Assembly: GCA_017411235.1 (NCBI GenBank)
Contig: JAFPMR010000013.1
Coordinates: 1-5,661, forward strand
Length of the DNA stretch: 5,661 nt
Reading direction: 5' to 3'
From: Bacilli bacterium
GTDB taxonomy: Bacteria > Bacillota_I > Bacilli_A > RF39 > UBA660
The stretch's first letter is position 1. The number at the start of each line of letters is the position of its first letter. Made by a program: the position numbers and the translations under genes. This document shows, piece by piece, positions 1-5,661 of this stretch. The notes beneath the pieces were generated by a model, which did no database searches, had not been told where the DNA came from, and saw nothing but the letters and a program-made list of their open reading frames with translations.

Positions 1-1170
1 GAACATTATTATCAAGCAATGAAGTTTGATAATGAAGAAATAAGAAATAGAATTATTAATGCTCTGACTCCTAAAGAAGCATCAAATATCGGAAGAGATA
101 GAAATAATAAAAGAATAGATAATTTTAAAAAAATAAAGAATGATGTAATGTTTAATGGTGTTCTAGAAAAGTTTAGACAAAATAGAGACATTGCTTATAA
201 ATTAATTGAAACAAGAAATAATGATATTGCGGAAGCTACAGTAGACGAATACTATTGGGGTATTGGTAAAGATAAAAGTGGAGAAAACAATATTGGTAAG
301 ATTCTTGTTAAGGTTAGAGATAGAATAAAAAGGGAAATATTAGATAGTATTATTAATAATGCTAAAAAAGAAAAAGAAGTATTTGTAATAGGACATTATA
401 ATCCAGATATTGATTCAATCTTTAGTAGTTATTTATTAACTAAGGTCTTAAATAGTTTAGGTGTTAATGCCAAGTTTGCTTTTTTAGATAATTATGTTGT
501 TAATGATAATGATCAACGAATTATAGATGATTATTTAGATGAACAACCTATAGTTGTAGATAAGAATAATAAGTTTATAATAGTAGACCATAATAATCTA
601 GAGGGGTTAGAAAAAGAAAATGTTATTGGATCTATAGATCATCATATTATAAGTGGAGAAGTATATGATACTTTAGAAATAGAATATGCTTCTACTGGTT
701 TGTTAATATATGATTTATTTAAGGATGTATATAAATTCAAGAAAAAAGAAAAAGAATTAATAGCATTAACAGTTTTAACTGATACAGATTATTTATGTAG
801 TTCAAGATTTACAGAAGAAGATAAAAAATTATTTAATGAATTAAAAATAAAGGTTGATGTTAAAGAATTACAACGTAAATACTTTGTTATTAATGATTTT
901 AATAAAGAGATTTCTTTAGCTGTAAAAGATAATTATAAAGAATATGATTTCAATGGTAAACATATATGTCGTACGATGATTTATAGTTATCATGATGAAT
1001 ATAAAAAATACTATCAAGATTATTTAGAATATGCTAAGAAGAATAATTATTTATTAATATGGTGTGATTATGAAAGTATGAAAACTTATGTTTACTATAA
1101 TGATGAAAAGATAAGTTTAGATTATATTCTTACTAGTACCAATTTAGTATTAAAAATGTTAAATATATAA
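1..1170 (+). CDS. NADAR domain fused to DHH phosphoesterase (5' end outside window)
   Basis: The reading frame is open from base 1, and its first residues, EHYYQAMKF, are the classic internal NADAR (YbiA-like) motif. The ATG at 19 is therefore an internal methionine and the true start lies upstream. Residues are numbered from the first codon in the window. NADAR hallmarks continue with PKEASNIGR (24-32), DVMFNGVLEKFRQN (48-61), EATVDEYYWGIG (78-89) and a GxNxxGKxLxxVR-like end (about 94-106). A DHH domain follows at once: GHYNPDIDS (131-139), DHN (196-198), DHH (213-215) and TDTD (260-263). This matches the metal ligands of Mn-dependent family II pyrophosphatase (PpaC). The C-terminal region (about 300-389) sits where DHHA2 should be but lacks the SRKKQ signature, so pyrophosphatase activity is uncertain. 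NADAR proteins cleave N-glycosidic bonds of riboflavin precursors or remove ADP-ribose; DHH enzymes split phosphoesters. A cytosolic bifunctional nucleotide or ADP-ribose enzyme is an inference. Confidence 0.88.
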   Translation, partial: EHYYQAMKFDNEEIRNRIINALTPKEASNIGRDRNNKRIDNFKKIKNDVMFNGVLEKFRQNRDIAYKLIETRNNDIAEATVDEYYWGIGKDKSGENNIGKILVKVRDRIKREILDSIINNAKKEKEVFVIGHYNPDIDSIFSSYLLTKVLNSLGVNAKFAFLDNYVVNDNDQRIIDDYLDEQPIVVDKNNKFIIVDHNNLEGLEKENVIGSIDHHIISGEVYDTLEIEYASTGLLIYDLFKDVYKFKKKEKELIALTVLTDTDYLCSSRFTEEDKKLFNELKIKVDVKELQRKYFVINDFNKEISLAVKDNYKEYDFNGKHICRTMIYSYHDEYKKYYQDYLEYAKKNNYLLIWCDYESMKTYVYYNDEKISLDYILTSTNLVLKMLNI

Positions 1171-1194
1171 GATTACTTTAGTAATCTTTTTTTT
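1171..1194 (+). terminator. Intrinsic terminator of the NADAR-DHH gene
   Basis: A 6-bp stem (GATTAC, 1171-1176, with GTAATC, 1181-1186) with a 4-nt loop is followed by eight T residues. It begins directly after the TAA stop. The stem is short, but the T-tract is uninterrupted. Confidence 0.75.
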
Positions 1195-1260
1195 ATAAAT
1201 ATAATTTATTGTTGGGGTGTGATATAAACAATTTTTATTGTATATATTAATAATATATAT

Positions 1261-1288
1261 TTGACTTATGAATTTAATGATAGATAAT
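1261..1288 (+). promoter_or_regulatory. Putative promoter of the Nudix-like gene
   Basis: TTGACT (1261-1266) and GATAAT (1283-1288) are separated by 16 bp. Transcription would start near 1295, at the edge of the ribosome binding site, giving a leader of about 14 nt. A 9-bp AT-only inverted repeat (1241-1249 with 1251-1259) lies just upstream of the -35. It may be an operator or only low-complexity DNA. Confidence 0.5.
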
Positions 1289-1308
1289 ACAATTAGGAAG
1301 GAATAAGT

Positions 1309-1755
1309 TTGTTTATGAGAAAGGTTTGCGATAGTGATTTTGGTGGCAAAGAATACGAAGGGGAATGCAAAGAAAAGAAATGCTTTAAATACATTATTTT
1401 AGATAATAGTGGTAGTGTAGCATTGTTTGGAAGTGAGAATGATTATAGACTTCCGAAAGTAGATGAATTAAATGAGGAGATTGTTGTAGATAAGGTTGTT
1501 GCAGAATTAAATGATCAATTAACAACGATTGAAGAAATAAAAGGGGAAGAAAAAACTAAGTACAATATTGATGTGTACGTAGCTAAAGTAAATAAAAAAG
1601 ATGACATTAATGTTAAATGGGTAGCTCCAGAAGAAGCATTAAAGATTATTAGTATGTTTAAAAGAAATATTGAAGCACAAGAATATGATCGTAAATTTGA
1701 AATCTTAGAAGATGAAAATGCTTTAAGAGATTATATTATTAAATATATTTATTAA
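1309..1755 (+). CDS. Nudix-fold protein with degenerate catalytic box
   Basis: The protein has 148 residues and a TTG start. The TTG lies 7 nt after GGAAGG (1296-1301), whereas the in-frame ATG at 1315 would be 13 nt away, so TTG fits better. The layout follows Nudix hydrolases of the type opening RKxxDxDFGGKE (residues 4-15). A first strand FKYIILDNSGSVALF (26-40) leads to YRLPK at the usual YxLPGG position (46-50), and the end KWVAPEEALKII (103-114) matches the W-x-x-x-EAL-x-x-I signature. The Nudix box itself (GX5EX7REUXEEXGU) is not recognisable: LPGG has become LPKV, and REVxEExG aligns to about VAELNDQL (63-71), so the Mg-binding glutamates are missing. It is probably inactive as a pyrophosphohydrolase and may bind a nucleotide or a partner protein. 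The family assignment rests on motif order and flanking motifs. It follows a NADAR gene but has its own promoter and terminator. Confidence 0.7.
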   Translation: MFMRKVCDSDFGGKEYEGECKEKKCFKYIILDNSGSVALFGSENDYRLPKVDELNEEIVVDKVVAELNDQLTTIEEIKGEEKTKYNIDVYVAKVNKKDDINVKWVAPEEALKIISMFKRNIEAQEYDRKFEILEDENALRDYIIKYIY

Positions 1756-1779
1756 GATTAGTTTTACTAATCTTTTTTT
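1754..1779 (+). terminator. Intrinsic terminator of the Nudix-like gene
   Basis: A 9-bp perfect stem (1754-1762 with 1766-1774) and a 3-nt loop run into a T-tract (1773-1779). The TAA stop codon (1753-1755) overlaps the left arm. Confidence 0.85.
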
Positions 1780-1780
1780 A

Positions 1781-1789
1781 TGATATAAT
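1781..1789 (+). promoter_or_regulatory. Extended -10 promoter of the 104-aa gene
   Basis: TGATATAAT is a perfect extended -10 (TGnTATAAT). It starts one base after the T-tract of the preceding terminator. No good -35 is seen; the region where it should lie is the terminator hairpin. Start of transcription is expected near 1796, where GAGGG (1796-1800) begins. Confidence 0.65.
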
Positions 1790-1806
1790 CTACAAGAGGG
1801 AAGAGT

Positions 1807-2121
1807 ATGAATAAGATAGAAACGTTAAAAGATACTTATAGATATATATGTGGTGCTTATTATGGTATTCGCGAAATGGATGAGTATGATTTGAAAGAAT
1901 ATATATTAAAAGATATCGATGAATATATTGATACTTTTATAGAATTAAATCCGATTCCAGATTTTGATTTTAAGAAAGAAAGAGAACAAGTTGACAATGA
2001 TTTACCATTAATAACAAAATTACAAGATGCACTCTTAGTTTTGCCTAAAATAGGGGCACCAATGGAGTTGGTGCTATTAGTAAAGAAAAGAATAAAGAGA
2101 TGTAAAGAAGACAAATTGTAA
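1807..2121 (+). CDS. Hypothetical protein, 104 aa
   Basis: I do not recognise a family. The ATG at 1807 has GAGGG (1796-1800) 6 nt upstream and a good extended -10 before it, which supports a real gene. The protein is charged and looks mostly helical, with no signal peptide and no convincing membrane segment. The N-terminal half is acidic and rich in Tyr, Asp and Glu (YDLKEYILKDIDEYIDTFIE at about 27-46). A central proline-containing turn (about 48-53) follows. The C-terminal part has a short hydrophobic stretch (about 75-92, with ALLVLP and ELVLLV) and a basic tail (KKRIKRCK). A cytosolic helical bundle is plausible, but no function can be given. Codon use matches the neighbours. It is the last protein gene before the tandem RNA genes, and its terminator is weak. 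Confidence 0.65.
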   Translation: MNKIETLKDTYRYICGAYYGIREMDEYDLKEYILKDIDEYIDTFIELNPIPDFDFKKEREQVDNDLPLITKLQDALLVLPKIGAPMELVLLVKKRIKRCKEDKL

Positions 2122-2138
2122 AATAATTTATTTTTTTT
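2113..2138 (+). terminator. Weak possible terminator after the 104-aa gene
   Basis: AAATT (2113-2117) can pair with AATTT (2125-2129), followed by A and eight T residues. The stem is all A-T and only 5 bp, so read-through into the RNA genes is possible. The T-run directly precedes the -35 of the first RNA promoter. Confidence 0.3.
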
Positions 2139-2140
2139 GA

Positions 2141-2169
2141 TTGACATATATTTATATACTTTGTATAAT
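2141..2169 (+). promoter_or_regulatory. Consensus promoter of structured RNA copy 1
   Basis: TTGACA (2141-2146), a 17-bp spacer and TATAAT (2164-2169) form a perfect housekeeping-sigma promoter. The start is expected at about 2174-2176. This and its twin at 2670 are the best promoters in the window, which suggests strong transcription. Confidence 0.9.
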
Positions 2170-2175
2170 TAAGAT

Positions 2176-2626
2176 ACTTAATAGTATTAAGATAGAAGGA
2201 CGAAATTCCAAAGGTCCTAGCGATACTTTTATAGTATTGAAATGGTGATAAACATTTGCTTTAGTGTAATATGAATAATATTATACTGGAACTGTGAGAA
2301 GCATTGTTTTGATCGACATTTTATTAATTAATTAGGTTATTAAGTTAACCTTGTTGGTTGTATATGGGAATGAAAGACTTCTTGTATGCATTATTTAATT
2401 AATAATTTGTAATAGAAGATTGATGATCTTAATTGGTTTTAAGATGGTATATGTGAGCTCATCTCACATATACTTGTACTCACTTCTACGATTTATCATT
2501 CAGCTATTAAGTTGGATATCCTCAGCGGGCTTATATTTAAATGGATGAGCCGAGCAAATTTTACCTGTCAGTAAGATCTTGGTAACCCGCCGAAAAAAAA
2601 GCAGTGTTGACAGACATTGCTTTTTT
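2176..2626 (+). ncRNA. Large structured noncoding RNA, copy 1 (about 450 nt)
   Basis: This transcript has its own promoter and terminator and no conserved reading frame. Helices seen by eye: ACTTAATAG (2176-2184) with CTATTAAGT (2504-2512), closing most of the molecule; AGGAC/GTCCT (2197-2201, 2214-2218); a 7-bp hairpin (2221-2227, 2233-2239); a copy-1-only 10-bp hairpin (2263-2272, 2278-2287); an 11-bp helix (2321-2331, 2395-2405) enclosing a GGTTA/TAACC hairpin (2335-2339, 2346-2350) and a stem-loop (2359-2365, 2384-2390) capped by the invariant GGAATGAAAGACTTCTT (2367-2383). Then TAGAAG/CTTCTA (2413-2418, 2483-2488) encloses two hairpins (2426-2432/2439-2445 and 2447-2457/2463-2473). A 3' domain has GCGG/CCGC (2525-2528, 2587-2590) and TTACC/GGTAA (2561-2565, 2581-2585). 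It is not tmRNA, RNase P, SRP or 6S RNA by signature. The family is not identified; ROOL is a candidate to test. Confidence 0.85.
2595..2626 (+). terminator. Intrinsic terminator of RNA copy 1
   Basis: A perfect 13-bp stem including one G-T wobble: A6 plus GCAGTGT (2595-2607) pairs with ACATTGC plus T6 (2614-2626) around a 6-nt loop. It starts 4 nt after the last helix of the RNA. Confidence 0.93.
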
Positions 2627-2669
2627 CATGTGTAAAATTACATTTATTTTGTAAATTTTAAAAAATGTA

Positions 2670-2698
2670 TTGACATCTATAAATATAGTATGTATAAT
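2670..2698 (+). promoter_or_regulatory. Consensus promoter of structured RNA copy 2
   Basis: TTGACA (2670-2675), a 17-bp spacer and TATAAT (2693-2698) form a second perfect promoter. The spacer differs in sequence from copy 1, so the promoter elements are conserved while the DNA between them has drifted. The start is expected at about 2703-2705. Confidence 0.9.
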
Positions 2699-2704
2699 AA
2701 AGAT

Positions 2705-3104
2705 ACTTAATAGTATTAAGATAGAAGGACATAATCAAAAAAGTCCTGTCAATACTTTTTTAAGTATTGGAGCAATCGAAAGATTGTTTTAAACGGTTAT
2801 TTGATAATTATTGGTTATTAATTTAGCCATTCTTGTATTTAGGAATGAAAGACTTCTTTTATACATATTATTAATTATCATTAACTTTAGAAGTATGATG
2901 GCTTAATTGGTTTTAAGCTGGTATGTGTAAGATTAATTTCTTACACATATCTGGTAATCACTTCTACGATTTATCATTCAGCTATTAAGTTGGATATCCT
3001 CAGCGGGCTTATATTTAAATGGATGAGCCGAGCAAGTTTTACCTGTCAGTAAGATCTTGGTAACCCGCCGAAAAAAAAGCAGTGTTGACAGACATTGCTT
3101 TTTT
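2705..3104 (+). ncRNA. Large structured noncoding RNA, copy 2 (about 400 nt)
   Basis: This is the paralogue of the RNA just upstream, with the same helices in the same order: closing helix 2705-2713/2982-2990; AGGAC/GTCCT (2726-2730, 2743-2747); an 8-bp hairpin (2750-2757, 2762-2769); CAATC-GAAA-GATTG (2773-2786), a GNRA-capped hairpin where copy 1 has a longer arm; a 9-bp helix (2802-2810, 2872-2880) enclosing GGTTA/TAGCC (2813-2817, 2824-2828) and a stem-loop (2834-2838, 2861-2865) with the same 17-nt cap (2842-2858); TAGAAG/CTTCTA (2888-2893, 2961-2966) enclosing hairpins 2901-2906/2913-2918 and 2922-2932/2939-2949; and an almost identical 3' domain. Several helices differ from copy 1 by paired changes (for example T2427-A2444 versus G2901-C2918), which supports the fold. 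Function unknown. Confidence 0.85.
3073..3104 (+). terminator. Intrinsic terminator of RNA copy 2
   Basis: Sequence-identical to the terminator of copy 1, loop included: a 13-bp stem (3073-3085 with 3092-3104) ending in six T residues. Confidence 0.93.
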
Positions 3105-3124
3105 CATGAGTTAATTTATTTTTA

Positions 3125-3133
3125 TGTTATAAT
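3125..3133 (+). promoter_or_regulatory. Extended -10 promoter of the AI-2E family gene
   Basis: TGTTATAAT is a perfect extended -10. There is no clear -35 at 17 bp. The start is expected near 3140, overlapping the ribosome binding site GAGGTG (3138-3143), so the leader is only about 10 nt. Confidence 0.65.
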
Positions 3134-3149
3134 TATAGAGGTGAAGCAT

Positions 3150-4247
3150 ATGGAAAAGAAAACATTTAAAGAGAAAATTTTACTAATTACTTATGCAATA
3201 GTTTTATTTGTCTTCTTAATGAATTATCATTGGGTTGTTAATGTTTTTAAATACTTATGGAAGATTCTGACACCATTTATTATGGGTGGAATTATTGCTT
3301 TTATAGTAAATGTTTTAGTTAATTTAATAGAGAAGAATTTGCTATTTAAAATGAAAAAAGGTAAGAGAGCATGTTCTATTATTTTATCTTTATTAATCAT
3401 ATTTAGTATTCTTTCTATTTTAGTTGGTATTCTAGTTCCACAAATTAAAGGAGCTGGAAAGATATTCGTTGATAATCTTCCTAAATATAAAGAAACGGTT
3501 TATAATCTAGGAACTAAATGGGGACTTAGTGAAGAAGTTCTAGATGTTATTGATTTTGAAAACGTTGATATTTCTAAGGAAGTATCTAAATATTTATATA
3601 GACATTCAGATAGTGCTTTACCAATAATATTTGGTTATGCTAGTTCAGTAATGGGTGTTATTGGTAATATCGTAGTTGGTATCATCTTTGCTATTTATTT
3701 GTTGTCTACTAAAGAGAGTTTAAGTAGACAGATTAAAAAGTTATTAAAGAAGATTTGTAAGAAAGATAAATATGATAGAATTCTAGAAATAGCATCTTTA
3801 ACTAATGATCGTTTTACTAATTATGTTAAGATTCAAGTTACAGAAGCATGTATTTTAGGTATTTTATGTTTTATAGGTATGTTAATATTAAGACTTCCTT
3901 ACGCAGCACCAATTAGTGTTATTATAGGCTTTACTGCCTTAATACCAATATTTGGTAGTTTAATAGGTGGCGCTGTTGGTGTATTCTTAATATTCATGGT
4001 TAATCCAGTTAAAGCTATTATATTCTTAGTATTCTATTTAATATTACAACAAGTAGAAACTAACGGTATATATCCTAAAGTAGTAGGAGATAAGATTAAT
4101 CTTCCTGGTATTTGGGTATTAGTTGCTGTATCTTTAGGTGGAACTATTTGGGGAGTACTTGGTATGTTAATAGGTGTTCCTACATGTTCAGTTATTTATC
4201 AATTGCTAAAGGAATATGTTAATGGTAAGAAAGAAACTAGTAAATAG
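3150..4247 (+). CDS. AI-2E family transporter (membrane permease)
   Basis: The 365-residue protein starts at ATG 3150, with GAGGTG (3138-3143) 6 nt upstream. A longer frame from TTG 3057 would run through the RNA terminator and the promoter and is rejected. Hydrophobic segments lie at about residues 10-25, 33-60, 74-97, 157-185, 228-247, 253-282, 285-302 and 320-350. A soluble extracytoplasmic loop (about 98-155) follows segment 3 and a basic loop (186-222) follows segment 4. Family signatures are clear: LPYAAPISVIIGFTALIPIFG (249-269, key residues Y251, P254, P266, G269), GDKINLPGIWVLVAVSLGG (313-331) and IWGVLGMLIGVPTCSVIY (333-350). Length is normal for PF01594. Members export varied small molecules or exchange cations; the autoinducer-2 role holds only for some, and the substrate here is unknown. 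The stop codon lies inside the terminator stem. Confidence 0.93.
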   Translation: MEKKTFKEKILLITYAIVLFVFLMNYHWVVNVFKYLWKILTPFIMGGIIAFIVNVLVNLIEKNLLFKMKKGKRACSIILSLLIIFSILSILVGILVPQIKGAGKIFVDNLPKYKETVYNLGTKWGLSEEVLDVIDFENVDISKEVSKYLYRHSDSALPIIFGYASSVMGVIGNIVVGIIFAIYLLSTKESLSRQIKKLLKKICKKDKYDRILEIASLTNDRFTNYVKIQVTEACILGILCFIGMLILRLPYAAPISVIIGFTALIPIFGSLIGGAVGVFLIFMVNPVKAIIFLVFYLILQQVETNGIYPKVVGDKINLPGIWVLVAVSLGGTIWGVLGMLIGVPTCSVIYQLLKEYVNGKKETSK

Positions 4248-4258
4248 TTTCTTTTTTT
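4230..4258 (+). terminator. Intrinsic terminator of the AI-2E family gene
   Basis: A 10-bp stem (4230-4239 with 4245-4254) and a 5-nt loop end in a T-tract (4252-4258). The left arm is coding and the TAG stop (4245-4247) forms the start of the right arm, so terminator and gene end overlap. Confidence 0.88.
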
Positions 4259-4259
4259 A

Positions 4260-4268
4260 TGGTACAAT
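4260..4268 (+). promoter_or_regulatory. Extended -10 promoter of the lipoprotein gene
   Basis: TGGTACAAT (TGn plus TACAAT) begins one base after the T-tract of the preceding terminator. The predicted start near 4275 coincides with the ribosome binding site AGGTGA (4275-4280). No -35 is evident. Confidence 0.55.
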
Positions 4269-4284
4269 TTATTTAGGTGATAGT

Positions 4285-5037
4285 ATGAAAAAGAAATTGT
4301 TAGTATTATTCTTGTTTTTATCTATATTTATGATAGTAGGTTGTAAGAAAAAAGAAGAAGAAAAGCCAAAGGCTGTAGATGAGGTTAGAGACCTAAAAGA
4401 AGACGAAATAGAAGAATTAACAAATAGAATAGATGCATTCTACTATTTTGATATAAATCCTGCTAAAAGCTTTAAAACGAGTGAATTAACGAATCAAGAA
4501 GTATTATTATGGGCTAGTTTTAAGGAATATGTTGATGGAACAGATTTCTCTAAGTTTGAAACATATGCTAAGGAATATTTAGATTTTTCTTTAGAGCCTG
4601 AAGATATTCTTTGTATGACCCATTCAAATATTCTTGGAACTTCTGATTATTTATTCAAATATGATGTTAATACTAAGAAATATATTGAAAACAAAGAACA
4701 TGTTAAGCATTCAGAAACTGGATATTATGCGTACGTTTATAACAAGTATTTAAGTTCTCAATTTAAAAATGGTGAATATATTATTACTTTTGGCAAACTA
4801 TTCAGCGATACTGATGTTGTTTATAGTAATAATGTAGATTATACAATAAAAAGAAATTGGTATAAGTCTTATAGTGATGCTAAAGCTAAGAAAAATCCAG
4901 TTATAACTAATTATAATAATACTAAGGCTGAAGAATATTTAAAAACGTTAGATGAAAAAGATTTAGTTAAATATACATATACATTTAAATTAAAAGATGG
5001 TAATTATATTTTAAAGAGTTACGAAATTGAAGAATAA
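4285..5037 (+). CDS. Putative lipoprotein of unknown function
   Basis: The 250-residue protein starts at ATG 4285, 4 nt after AGGTGA. The longer frame from 4216 is rejected because it reads through the previous terminator and this promoter. The N-terminus is a textbook lipoprotein signal: KKK (2-4), a hydrophobic core (5-18) and the lipobox IVGC with Cys20 as the lipidated residue. A charged Lys/Glu linker follows (about 21-45). The mature domain (about 46-250) is rich in Tyr, Lys and Asp, with no further membrane segment and one more cysteine in CMTH, near residue 112. It ends in a strand-like stretch (YTYTFKLKDGNYILKSYEIE). I recognise no domain. It should sit on the outer face of the cytoplasmic membrane. 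Its own promoter and the upstream terminator argue against tight co-transcription with the permease, though some read-through is possible. Confidence 0.85.
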   Translation: MKKKLLVLFLFLSIFMIVGCKKKEEEKPKAVDEVRDLKEDEIEELTNRIDAFYYFDINPAKSFKTSELTNQEVLLWASFKEYVDGTDFSKFETYAKEYLDFSLEPEDILCMTHSNILGTSDYLFKYDVNTKKYIENKEHVKHSETGYYAYVYNKYLSSQFKNGEYIITFGKLFSDTDVVYSNNVDYTIKRNWYKSYSDAKAKKNPVITNYNNTKAEEYLKTLDEKDLVKYTYTFKLKDGNYILKSYEIEE

Positions 5038-5062
5038 AAAAAGAAGCTATTAAGCTTCTTTT
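5036..5062. terminator. Bidirectional terminator between convergent genes
   Basis: A 10-bp stem (5039-5048 with 5053-5062) has a 4-nt loop, an A-run on the left (5036-5042) and T-rich sequence on the right (5059-5062, then 5065-5070). It can stop transcription in both directions. The - strand stop codon (5050-5052) sits in the loop, so the hairpin's right arm encodes the last residues of the symporter. Confidence 0.82.
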
Positions 5063-5661
5063 AATTTTTTACTTGTTTTTTGTTTCATCCAATCTTTACC
5101 ATCAACAACTCTTGATACAAGCATTGAAGAAGATGTATCACCAACAACATTTAATAGTGTTGCAGGTGGATCGATAATTGTTGCAATAATTGTTAGGATA
5201 GGTAAAGCTGTTAATGGGAATCCCATCATTGTTAAGATTAATGTTTCTGAAATTGTTCCACCACCAACTGGTACAGCTGTAACTAGTAATGTTGCAAGTA
5301 ATGCAACTCCTAGAACAGTCCATACACTTGGATGTGTTCCGAATAAGTATACTAAGAACATAATCTTAAATACAGAGCCAATAACTGATCCATCTTTATG
5401 GAAACTAGTTCCTAATGGAATCATTGTTTCAGCAATATCATTTGATACACCAATCTTTTTAGCACAATCAGTATTTACTGGAATTGATGCTGCAGATGAA
5501 CATGTACTGATTGCTGTTGCAGTAGCAGGTAGGATATTAGCCCAGAAGGCTTTGAATCCTTTAGCACCACCAGCAATAAAGGCATATAGTGAATAAACTA
5601 TGAAGTAGAATAGTAATGCTACTACTGTATAAACGATAAATGTTTTACCGAAGCCAACAGC
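5050..5661 (-). CDS. Dicarboxylate/amino acid:cation symporter, C-terminal half (5' end outside window)
   Basis: The - strand frame stays open from 5661 to the TAA at 5050-5052 (203 residues); the ATG at 5424 is internal. Residues are numbered from the window edge. Landmarks of the DAACS/glutamate transporter family appear in order: a hydrophobic segment (about 5-30), the serine-rich HP1 loop STCSSAASIP (about 53-62), LGTSFHKDGS (about 82-91) where the family has the NMDGT motif, the HP2 region AVPVGGGTISETL (about 129-141), and TM8 with IDPPATLLNVVGD (about 162-174), then SMLVSR. TM8 retains the Asp, Thr, Asn and Asp of the substrate and sodium sites. The arginine that holds acidic side chains in GltPh (R397) aligns to alanine, and NMDGT has become HKDGS. 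The substrate may therefore not be glutamate or aspartate. It should be an inner membrane secondary transporter, normally trimeric. Confidence 0.92.
   Translation of the reverse strand, partial: AVGFGKTFIVYTVVALLFYFIVYSLYAFIAGGAKGFKAFWANILPATATAISTCSSAASIPVNTDCAKKIGVSNDIAETMIPLGTSFHKDGSVIGSVFKIMFLVYLFGTHPSVWTVLGVALLATLLVTAVPVGGGTISETLILTMMGFPLTALPILTIIATIIDPPATLLNVVGDTSSSMLVSRVVDGKDWMKQKTSKKLKEA

Follow-up and report, generated by a model that had tools for sequence, protein, structure and literature searches.

What is encoded between the gene for a 104-aa protein (1807–2121) and the AI-2E transporter gene (3150–4247) on contig JAFPMR010000013.1 of a Bacilli bacterium (GenBank assembly GCA_017411235.1)? 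The window, i.e. the whole stretch of DNA analysed, comprises positions 1 to 5,661 of this contig (5,661 nt), and the interval in question holds two tandem homologous RNA genes, all parts of which lie on the + strand. An initial annotation had proposed two large structured RNAs, either a divergent member of a known family or an undescribed one. Taken together, the evidence makes it probable that they represent a new family of structured RNAs, about 260–450 nt long, that are free-standing, homodimerise and act in trans, here present as a tandem pair. The most telling features, none of which was part of that annotation, are an interleaved pseudoknot, a contact between a hairpin loop and the terminator loop, and a palindrome.

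Perfect (12/12) TTGACA-17-TATAAT promoters occur exactly twice in the whole window, both on the + strand and one per RNA gene: at 2141–2169 (TTGACA at 2141, TATAAT at 2164–2169) and at 2670–2698 (TTGACA at 2670, TATAAT at 2693–2698), each with a 17-base spacer. The RNAs assigned to them from promoter and terminator anatomy, fold energy and covariance-model matches have predicted ends at 2175–2626 (copy 1, 452 nt) and 2704–3104 (copy 2, 401 nt), in agreement with the lengths of about 450 and 400 nt given at the outset. Each ends in a terminator hairpin with a 13-bp stem (one G-U pair) and a 6-base UGACAG loop, located at 2595–2626 in copy 1 (stem 2595–2607/2614–2626, loop 2608–2613) and at 3073–3104 in copy 2 (stem 3073–3085/3092–3104, loop 3086–3091); these were identified by reading and folding, and an automated terminator scan listed neither. 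The promoter scan, folding and copy alignment bear out the description of two homologous transcription units with perfect promoters and 13-bp terminators, and the sequence suggests that both are transcribed independently. Compared with dinucleotide shuffles, the fold energies give z-scores of -5.99 (copy 1) and -6.79 (copy 2), with 0 of 100 shuffles as good in each case, and the 18 members of the family that were tested lie between -3.5 and -12.5 with a mean of -7.1 (20 shuffles per member); together with covariation among the homologues, this agrees with their designation as large structured RNAs. The final 149 bases of the two copies have a single difference, and their 5' parts align with 75% identity (252 aligned positions, 59 gap columns). 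A duplication would fit this pattern, the near-identical 3' core pointing to strong constraint or to gene conversion, between which the sequences do not decide. The tandem arrangement had been thought to imply high dosage or two specialised forms, a proposal that finds no support: close relatives carry one copy, and the 3' cores of the window's copies are nearly the same.

Relatives of the RNA were traced through a neighbouring protein, a NADAR-DHH fusion, a scan for which gave the loci L003–L021. Synteny revealed the RNA in L003, L004 and L010 (the last from Candidatus Coprovivens excrementavium), metagenome-assembled genomes with a window-like gene order and one RNA copy each. The first covariance model (R1), built from the 3' domains of five sequences, matched 17 genomes in a search of 146 relatives, five of which were rejected by reading (G237, G215, G205, G247 and G232, without the P1b strand, palindrome and loop pair described below); R1 contained a helix later judged spurious and was superseded by R2 and R3. 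R2, built from 16 sequences, found matches in 29 of the 385 genomes searched within the order, one of which was rejected. R3, built from 43, found them in 4 genomes of a class-wide sample (395 genomes) and in 2 of a phylum-wide sample (392 genomes); since the strict filters of these large-sample searches score few candidates per genome, the counts are lower bounds. Within the same limits, no new lineage distant from the order was evident in the class and phylum samples. With laxer filters, R3 matched 11 of 39 relatives of genome G466. A renewed search of the 39 positive genomes found the RNA in every one of them, G200 having four copies and G202 five. Also dropped were G440/L092 and G155b (E 0.005, no palindrome), and a second weak match in G282 (E 0.048) stands outside the accepted set. 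Such a search of relatives had been suggested in the initial annotation, and its yield is 48 accepted homologous copies in 39 genomes, or 50 copies including those of the window, with a core supported by covariation. A further 14 copies from 10 other genomes, used in no model, served as a held-out set. A core pattern with up to 3 mismatches, applied to 193 genomes of one family, gave 2 matches, both already in the set, and a more specific version of another pattern, CAGCGGGCT...GAGCCGAGCAA, gave no match in genome contigs. The RNAs are 263–452 nt long in those rows whose 5' end is credible. Matches cluster in a single order of Bacilli, which we take to be RF39; the NCBI taxonomy places Coprovivens and Onthousia in Bacilli incertae sedis.

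The shared elements follow one another in the order P1a, P2a, variable domain, P2b, PKa, P1b, palindrome, Pxa, PKb, CUGUCA-loop hairpin, Pxb and UGACAG-loop terminator. In copy 1, the 5' strand of P1, ACUUAAUAG (2176–2184), lies near the predicted 5' end and pairs with CUAUUAAGU (2504–2512), both strands being assigned from covariation; the corresponding strands of copy 2 are at 2705–2713 and 2982–2990, with covariation noted for the latter. A -10-like box is found exactly 5 nt ahead of a motif resembling TACTTAATAG in 44 of the 50 accepted copies (with up to 2 mismatches allowed and G200b, whose box was assigned to the neighbouring copy, left uncounted), and because of this fixed distance P1a is taken to mark the 5' end of the transcript. 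P1 thus joins the first bases of the predicted transcript to an inner strand, and 402 of 414 cells (97.1%) are paired in 46 of 51 rows, compared with a mean of 93.4% and a maximum of 94.9% in 1000 shuffles; at one position the pair changes from C-G to G-C, A-U and U-A. This count leaves out G155b, G104, G188, G347 and G282, which have no convincing 5' strand, and the 5' strand of G200b was set by hand. P2 pairs UAGAAG (2193–2198) with CUUCUA (2483–2488) and encloses the variable, multi-branched internal domain of copy 1 seen on folding (2199–2482); in copy 2 its strands are at 2722–2727 and 2961–2966. It stands out clearly in the closest relatives and in a number of others, with other base pairs at the same place in G001, G002, G003 and G196, and is unclear in many distant rows (G155b, G104, G188, G347, G282, G200b and G359 were not listed).

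Two further helices are PK and Px. PKa, UCAUUCA at 2496–2502, pairs at 7 of 7 positions (one G-U) with PKb, UGGAUGA at 2542–2548, and in copy 2 these strands are at 2974–2980 and 3020–3026; covariation identifies PKb in copy 1 and both strands in copy 2. Px is formed by GCGGG (2525–2529) and CCCGC (2586–2590) in copy 1, and by 3003–3007 and 3064–3068 in copy 2. Covariation was scored on a 16-row MAFFT alignment not fitted to structure (A6) and on a 43-row alignment fitted to the model (A8), and the scores were compared with those of shuffles and slid structures. Paired cells made up 90.1% of 474 in A6, where the score was 0.550 versus 0.274 for shuffles (0/500 reach it) and at most 0.219 when slid. 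The values for A8 were 91.6% of 1269 cells and 0.568 versus 0.222 (0/500), at most 0.182 when slid, and 25 of its 30 pairs had both-sided changes. For PK, 95.5% of cells are paired in A6, with both-sided changes in 5 of 7 pairs, and 96.9% in A8, with such changes in all seven. Covariation shows that PK crosses P1 and that the terminator stem is present. Repeated compensatory sequence pairs (GCGGG/CCCGC, UGUGG/CCACA and GUAGC/GCUAC among them) show that Px is real and likewise crossed by PK, the best stem being unconvincing in a few rows. PK across P1 and Px is therefore a chain of interleaved pseudoknots. The description of conserved segments as single-stranded in the initial annotation needs amending, since some of them are paired in the pseudoknot and in a loop-loop contact.

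That contact joins the CUGUCA loop of the hairpin between PKb and Pxb (2565–2570 in copy 1, 3043–3048 in copy 2, both with covariation) to the UGACAG loop of the terminator, a pairing of which we are highly confident. The helix was nowhere modelled as pairs, and 96.4% of its cells are paired in the 43 rows of A8, with 5 both-sided cells and a joint change of the two loops in five sequences, three of which have CUGACA and two CUAUCA. A separate count in 49 rows found 37 exact matches, nine matches with one mismatch and three rows that do not match, and among the held-out copies the hairpin and terminator loops are exactly complementary in 13 of 14. The two loops may belong to the same chain, or one chain of a dimer may supply the hairpin loop and the other the terminator loop. 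In the second tandem copies of L059 (5928–6069) and L061 (5745–5881), the terminator loop is without GACAG, and UGACA precedes Pxb instead; the loop contact may have moved in these RNAs.

Directly 3' of P1b is a self-complementary stretch, usually of 8–12 bases, which in the window reads GGAUAUCC in both copies (2514–2521 and 2992–2999). Its frequency was determined in 23-base segments of the 51 rows minus G155b. Watson-Crick palindromes of at least 8 bases are present in 41 of these 50 RNAs, compared with a mean of 1.6 and a maximum of 8 in 500 rounds of mononucleotide shuffling; with G-U pairs allowed, all 50 reach this length, and shuffles give a mean of 16.8 and a maximum of 28 (500 rounds). 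The sequence itself varies widely. There are 28 distinct palindromes among the 50 RNAs, and their central four bases take ten Watson-Crick self-complementary forms (ACGU, AUAU, GUAC, UAUA, AAUU, GCGC, CAUG, CCGG, GAUC and AGCU); between G351 and G031, for example, ACGU is replaced by AUAU and the remaining palindrome is unchanged. The held-out copies behave similarly, with Watson-Crick palindromes of at least 8 in 9 of 14 (mean 0.57, maximum 4 in 2000 shuffles) and in 13 of 14 when G-U is allowed (mean 4.7, maximum 12). One of them, L167, was misanchored in the scan, and ATGTACGTACAT lies just beyond its scanned segment. Statistically, then, a self-complementary segment is kept through its very centre while its sequence changes. 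Neighbouring bases of one chain are unable to pair with each other, so these changes speak for pairing between separate molecules; for the OLE loop L9.3 and GOLLD loop L21a, mutually replacing self-complementary tetranucleotides have been interpreted as a sign of intermolecular pairing (Kretsch et al. 2025, PMC12286853). On the sequence pattern, we regard it as likely, with good confidence, that the palindrome pairs two RNA molecules in a predicted homodimer.

Palindromes also differ among paralogues within one genome, namely the five copies of G202 and the four of G200, while matching paralogues of the two genomes share a core palindrome; this holds for copies a, b and d in each genome and for the pair G200c/G202e. 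By calculation, self-pairing is preferred to cross-pairing in both G466 copies and in copies b and d of G202. It is tempting to picture self-recognising RNAs, in which each gene would have its own palindromic code, giving an evolvable, partly orthogonal homodimerisation with the terminator as a structural element. We hold this extension only tentatively and think it rather doubtful, as G202 copies a, c and e could, by the same calculation, cross-pair, and a also with d, about as well as they self-pair, and the window's two copies share one code.

Several observations weigh against the homodimer and the fold as drawn. The Watson-Crick test of the palindrome is strong, whereas the G-U test alone is weak, and 9 of the 50 palindromes reach 8 bases only with G-U pairs. 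The held-out copies L158 and L159 keep only 6 bases, TGTACA, the Watson-Crick 8-mer counted in G200a and G202a overlaps P1, and the outer palindrome pairs could make a small hairpin in one chain. The 5' strands of P1 were chosen by likeness to the motif, and models R2 and R3 include PK and two outer palindrome pairs. Matching terminator loops are missing from G200b, G202b and G155a, nine of 49 rows have one mismatch, and the loop-terminator helix has no both-sided change in the 16-row set A6; the models moreover prefer the letters CUGUCA, UGACAG and average palindrome letters, so the agreement of the held-out copies is not fully independent. Finally, nothing points directly at a function, the role being inferred and the dimer and transcript predicted.

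The same new family could instead work as a monomer, with the palindrome as a short variable hairpin, for many copies allow a stem of 2–4 bp closing a four-base loop, and some palindromes need G-U pairs or are shortened. However, the four bases at the centre could not pair inside a single hairpin, and a hairpin loop gives no reason for them to stay self-complementary in ten forms; among 950 control windows taken upstream, only 9.4% contain a Watson-Crick palindrome of 8 or more (28.8% with G-U). We consider the monomer unlikely, though it is the most credible of the alternatives. Operators are typically palindromic, and the element might be read as a site in the DNA of the RNA gene to which a dimeric protein binds. 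The occurrence of 28 sequences in 50 copies, five of them in one genome (G202), always directly after P1, makes this the least probable explanation of all. The homodimerising RNA remains the preferred reading, and it has next to be compared with explanations that concern the RNA gene as a whole.

A divergent known RNA (RNase P, tmRNA, 6S, raiA, OLE, ROOL or GOLLD) missed by the Rfam models would suit the size and complexity of the transcripts. No match at E≤1 was found when the window was compared with 4227 Rfam families (cmscan), and permissive searches of 2120–3140 and of two single homologues (E≤10) returned only matches far below the curated cut-offs. Scanning 12 homologue loci at E≤1 gave one sub-threshold match, located outside the RNA. 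The strongest Rfam match, mir-553 on the terminator region of a homologue (E 0.011, 25.2 bits versus a cut-off of 82), was rejected, as were SpF25 (E 2.5 in 2120–3140), which appears to be a terminator match, and RT-17 and other weak matches far under their cut-offs. The models of the seven RNAs just named (raiA as RF03072) were unmatched in the window (E≤1), in 2120–3140 (E≤10), in the 12 homologue loci (E≤1) and in the two single homologues (E≤10), and no tRNA or tmRNA was found at the RNA locus. In 20 family genomes checked, RNase P RNA (RF00011) is located elsewhere in all 20, tmRNA (RF00023) is above cut-off and elsewhere in 17, and 6S RNA (RF00013) is at a separate place in 19, above cut-off in nine. 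G036, G200 and G202, which are without tmRNA above cut-off, may be incomplete assemblies, and 6S scores under the Rfam cut-off in 10 of the 19 genomes having 6S indicate that the 6S RNA of this lineage is divergent. raiA was not seen in the 20 genomes, which would fit a stand-in for it, but controls of the same search were silent too, so this result is uninformative. A missed member of these families is thus very unlikely, and, within the reach of the Rfam models, an undescribed family is the better supported of the two options in the initial annotation, ahead of a divergent ROOL, OLE or raiA; ROOL had been singled out there for testing, and its model is among those unmatched. Likewise, no description of the family appeared among the papers listed from open-licence literature on structured or noncoding RNA, palindromic homodimers, terminator kissing loops, RF39 and Coprovivens/Onthousia, a search that left subscription journals mostly uncovered. 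A protein product is not suggested either: the longest open reading frames (ORFs) inside the two genes are 42 and 40 aa, and the longest ORF averages 32.5 aa over 45 family rows (window copies included) versus 32.2 aa in mononucleotide shuffles, and because these lengths are equal, the RNAs look noncoding, as interpreted at the outset. A cis-acting leader, i.e. a riboswitch or attenuator of the downstream gene, would draw on the AI-2E gene, 45 nt ahead of which copy 2 ends, and on the 9 rows out of 51 (with the window entered twice) that have AI-2E as the first or second gene downstream. Among distant copies, the downstream genes are unrelated (ABC, ACPS, EamA, SLBB/HHH, cation efflux and SDF, from the 20 nearest genes scanned against Pfam), and the next gene is oppositely oriented in G055, G203, G466a and G472; because of these unrelated and partly reversed neighbours, and with the terminator loop tied into the fold, a leader is judged highly improbable. 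Loop-loop contacts and tandem copies are common in defence, antisense and mobile-element RNA systems, e.g. of the toxin-antitoxin or retron type, where the loops contact a target. Both partners of the loop contact here are in the same RNA and change together, and no gene recurs beside most of the RNA copies (51 rows). Three pattern scans of viral contigs gave only chance matches: the core pattern had none, the pattern CAGCGGGCT...GAGCCGAGCAA hit L001 and L002, rejected as coding DNA that is terminase-like by reading, and CTATTAAGT..CTGTCA..TGACAG hit eight stretches (L146–L153), rejected for lack of a model match and of a matching palindrome by eye. A blastn search of phage and plasmid records with copy 2 found only short matches (best E 0.1), and these exact-pattern scans and blastn would miss divergent copies. 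An origin in such systems accordingly seems very improbable, on a par with a missed known RNA.

The gene for the 104-aa lineage-specific protein (1807–2121, + strand) is the upstream neighbour of copy 1 and not part of the RNA. Of 51 rows, in which the window counts twice, 10 have it as the first gene upstream of the RNA; most of these belong to one clade, and copy d of G200 and of G202 is also among them. The protein has 270 relatives, with no Pfam domain in the 120 listed, and no relative of solved structure by sequence; its AlphaFold model is all-helical, with a mean pLDDT of 96.8. Its position may reflect a partnership with the RNA or no more than adjacency. Positions 1–1170 of the window encode the NADAR domain fused to a DHH phosphoesterase domain (310 relatives scored), a fusion that seems to mark this lineage, and the relatives of this protein and of the AI-2E transporter appear to share some contigs. 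In L003, L004 and L010, a gene of about 235 aa lies between the RNA and the AI-2E gene, where the window has its second RNA copy; that of L010 is VanZ-like (PF04892).

To our knowledge, few large bacterial RNAs of such complexity are known. In kind, the family resembles OLE, ROOL and GOLLD, and no homology was found with Rfam models. Structures of OLE, ROOL and GOLLD homo-oligomers were reported in 2025 (PMC12286853). Like the present RNA, OLE is a large RNA of Bacillota with an unclear biochemical role; it forms an RNA-only dimer and has a self-complementary loop tetranucleotide that switches between palindromes (PMC12286853), whereas the dimer is only predicted here. OLE is reported to be about 600 nt long, compared with 260–450 nt in the present family, which has no match to it in Rfam and in which the palindrome directly follows P1 within the interleaved P1-PK-Px pseudoknot. 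ROOL and GOLLD are described as ornate RNAs that form homo-oligomers and have kissing loops and an internal region that varies (PMC12286853), much as here, where the oligomer is a prediction. They are larger, encoded in prophages and phages according to the same publication, and unmatched here by their Rfam models, and the loop contact in the present family is with the terminator hairpin itself; at 263–452 nt, its members are not near the 580 nt given for ROOL at the outset or the more than 800 nt of many GOLLD members. The raiA motif (ModT, RF03072) is an abundant structured RNA of Bacillota with two pseudoknots and eight stems (PMC11706538). Its model has 209 positions and is unmatched here, and the main text of that report is without the words 'palindrom-' or 'dimer'. 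The dimerisation initiation site of HIV-1 likewise pairs two identical RNAs through a palindromic loop (PMC7357161); it is a GC-rich hexamer of a viral genome, in contrast to the widely varying palindrome of a bacterial noncoding RNA. The smtA motif ('Soda Lake RNA') is also a large bacterial RNA (>350 nt) of unclear role, reported only in Thioalkalivibrio (PMC11109978), and it is set apart by description, not by sequence.

How such an RNA might work can be outlined from these features. Each copy would be transcribed from its own consensus sigma-70-type promoter and stopped at its own terminator, and both RNA ends, being tied into the fold, would give a stable and abundant RNA. The palindrome would pair two molecules, as a kissing loop or an extended duplex, making the homodimer the working unit, and the loop-terminator contact would close each chain or swap between the two. 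Because of the consensus promoter, the folded-in ends and the lack of a fixed neighbour, a stable trans-acting RNA is envisaged. Whether it serves as a structural scaffold, probably with protein, as OLE RNA does, is an evenly balanced proposition drawn from that analogy, and, together with the idea that the variable internal domain, in which species and paralogues differ most, carries the species-specific part, it is the least certain step of the outline. For the family itself, the intrinsic terminator is more than a stop signal, as its loop serves, with compensatory changes, as part of the tertiary fold. With a short, swappable self-pairing element in an RNA of 300–400 nt, the question of why such RNAs self-assemble becomes testable.

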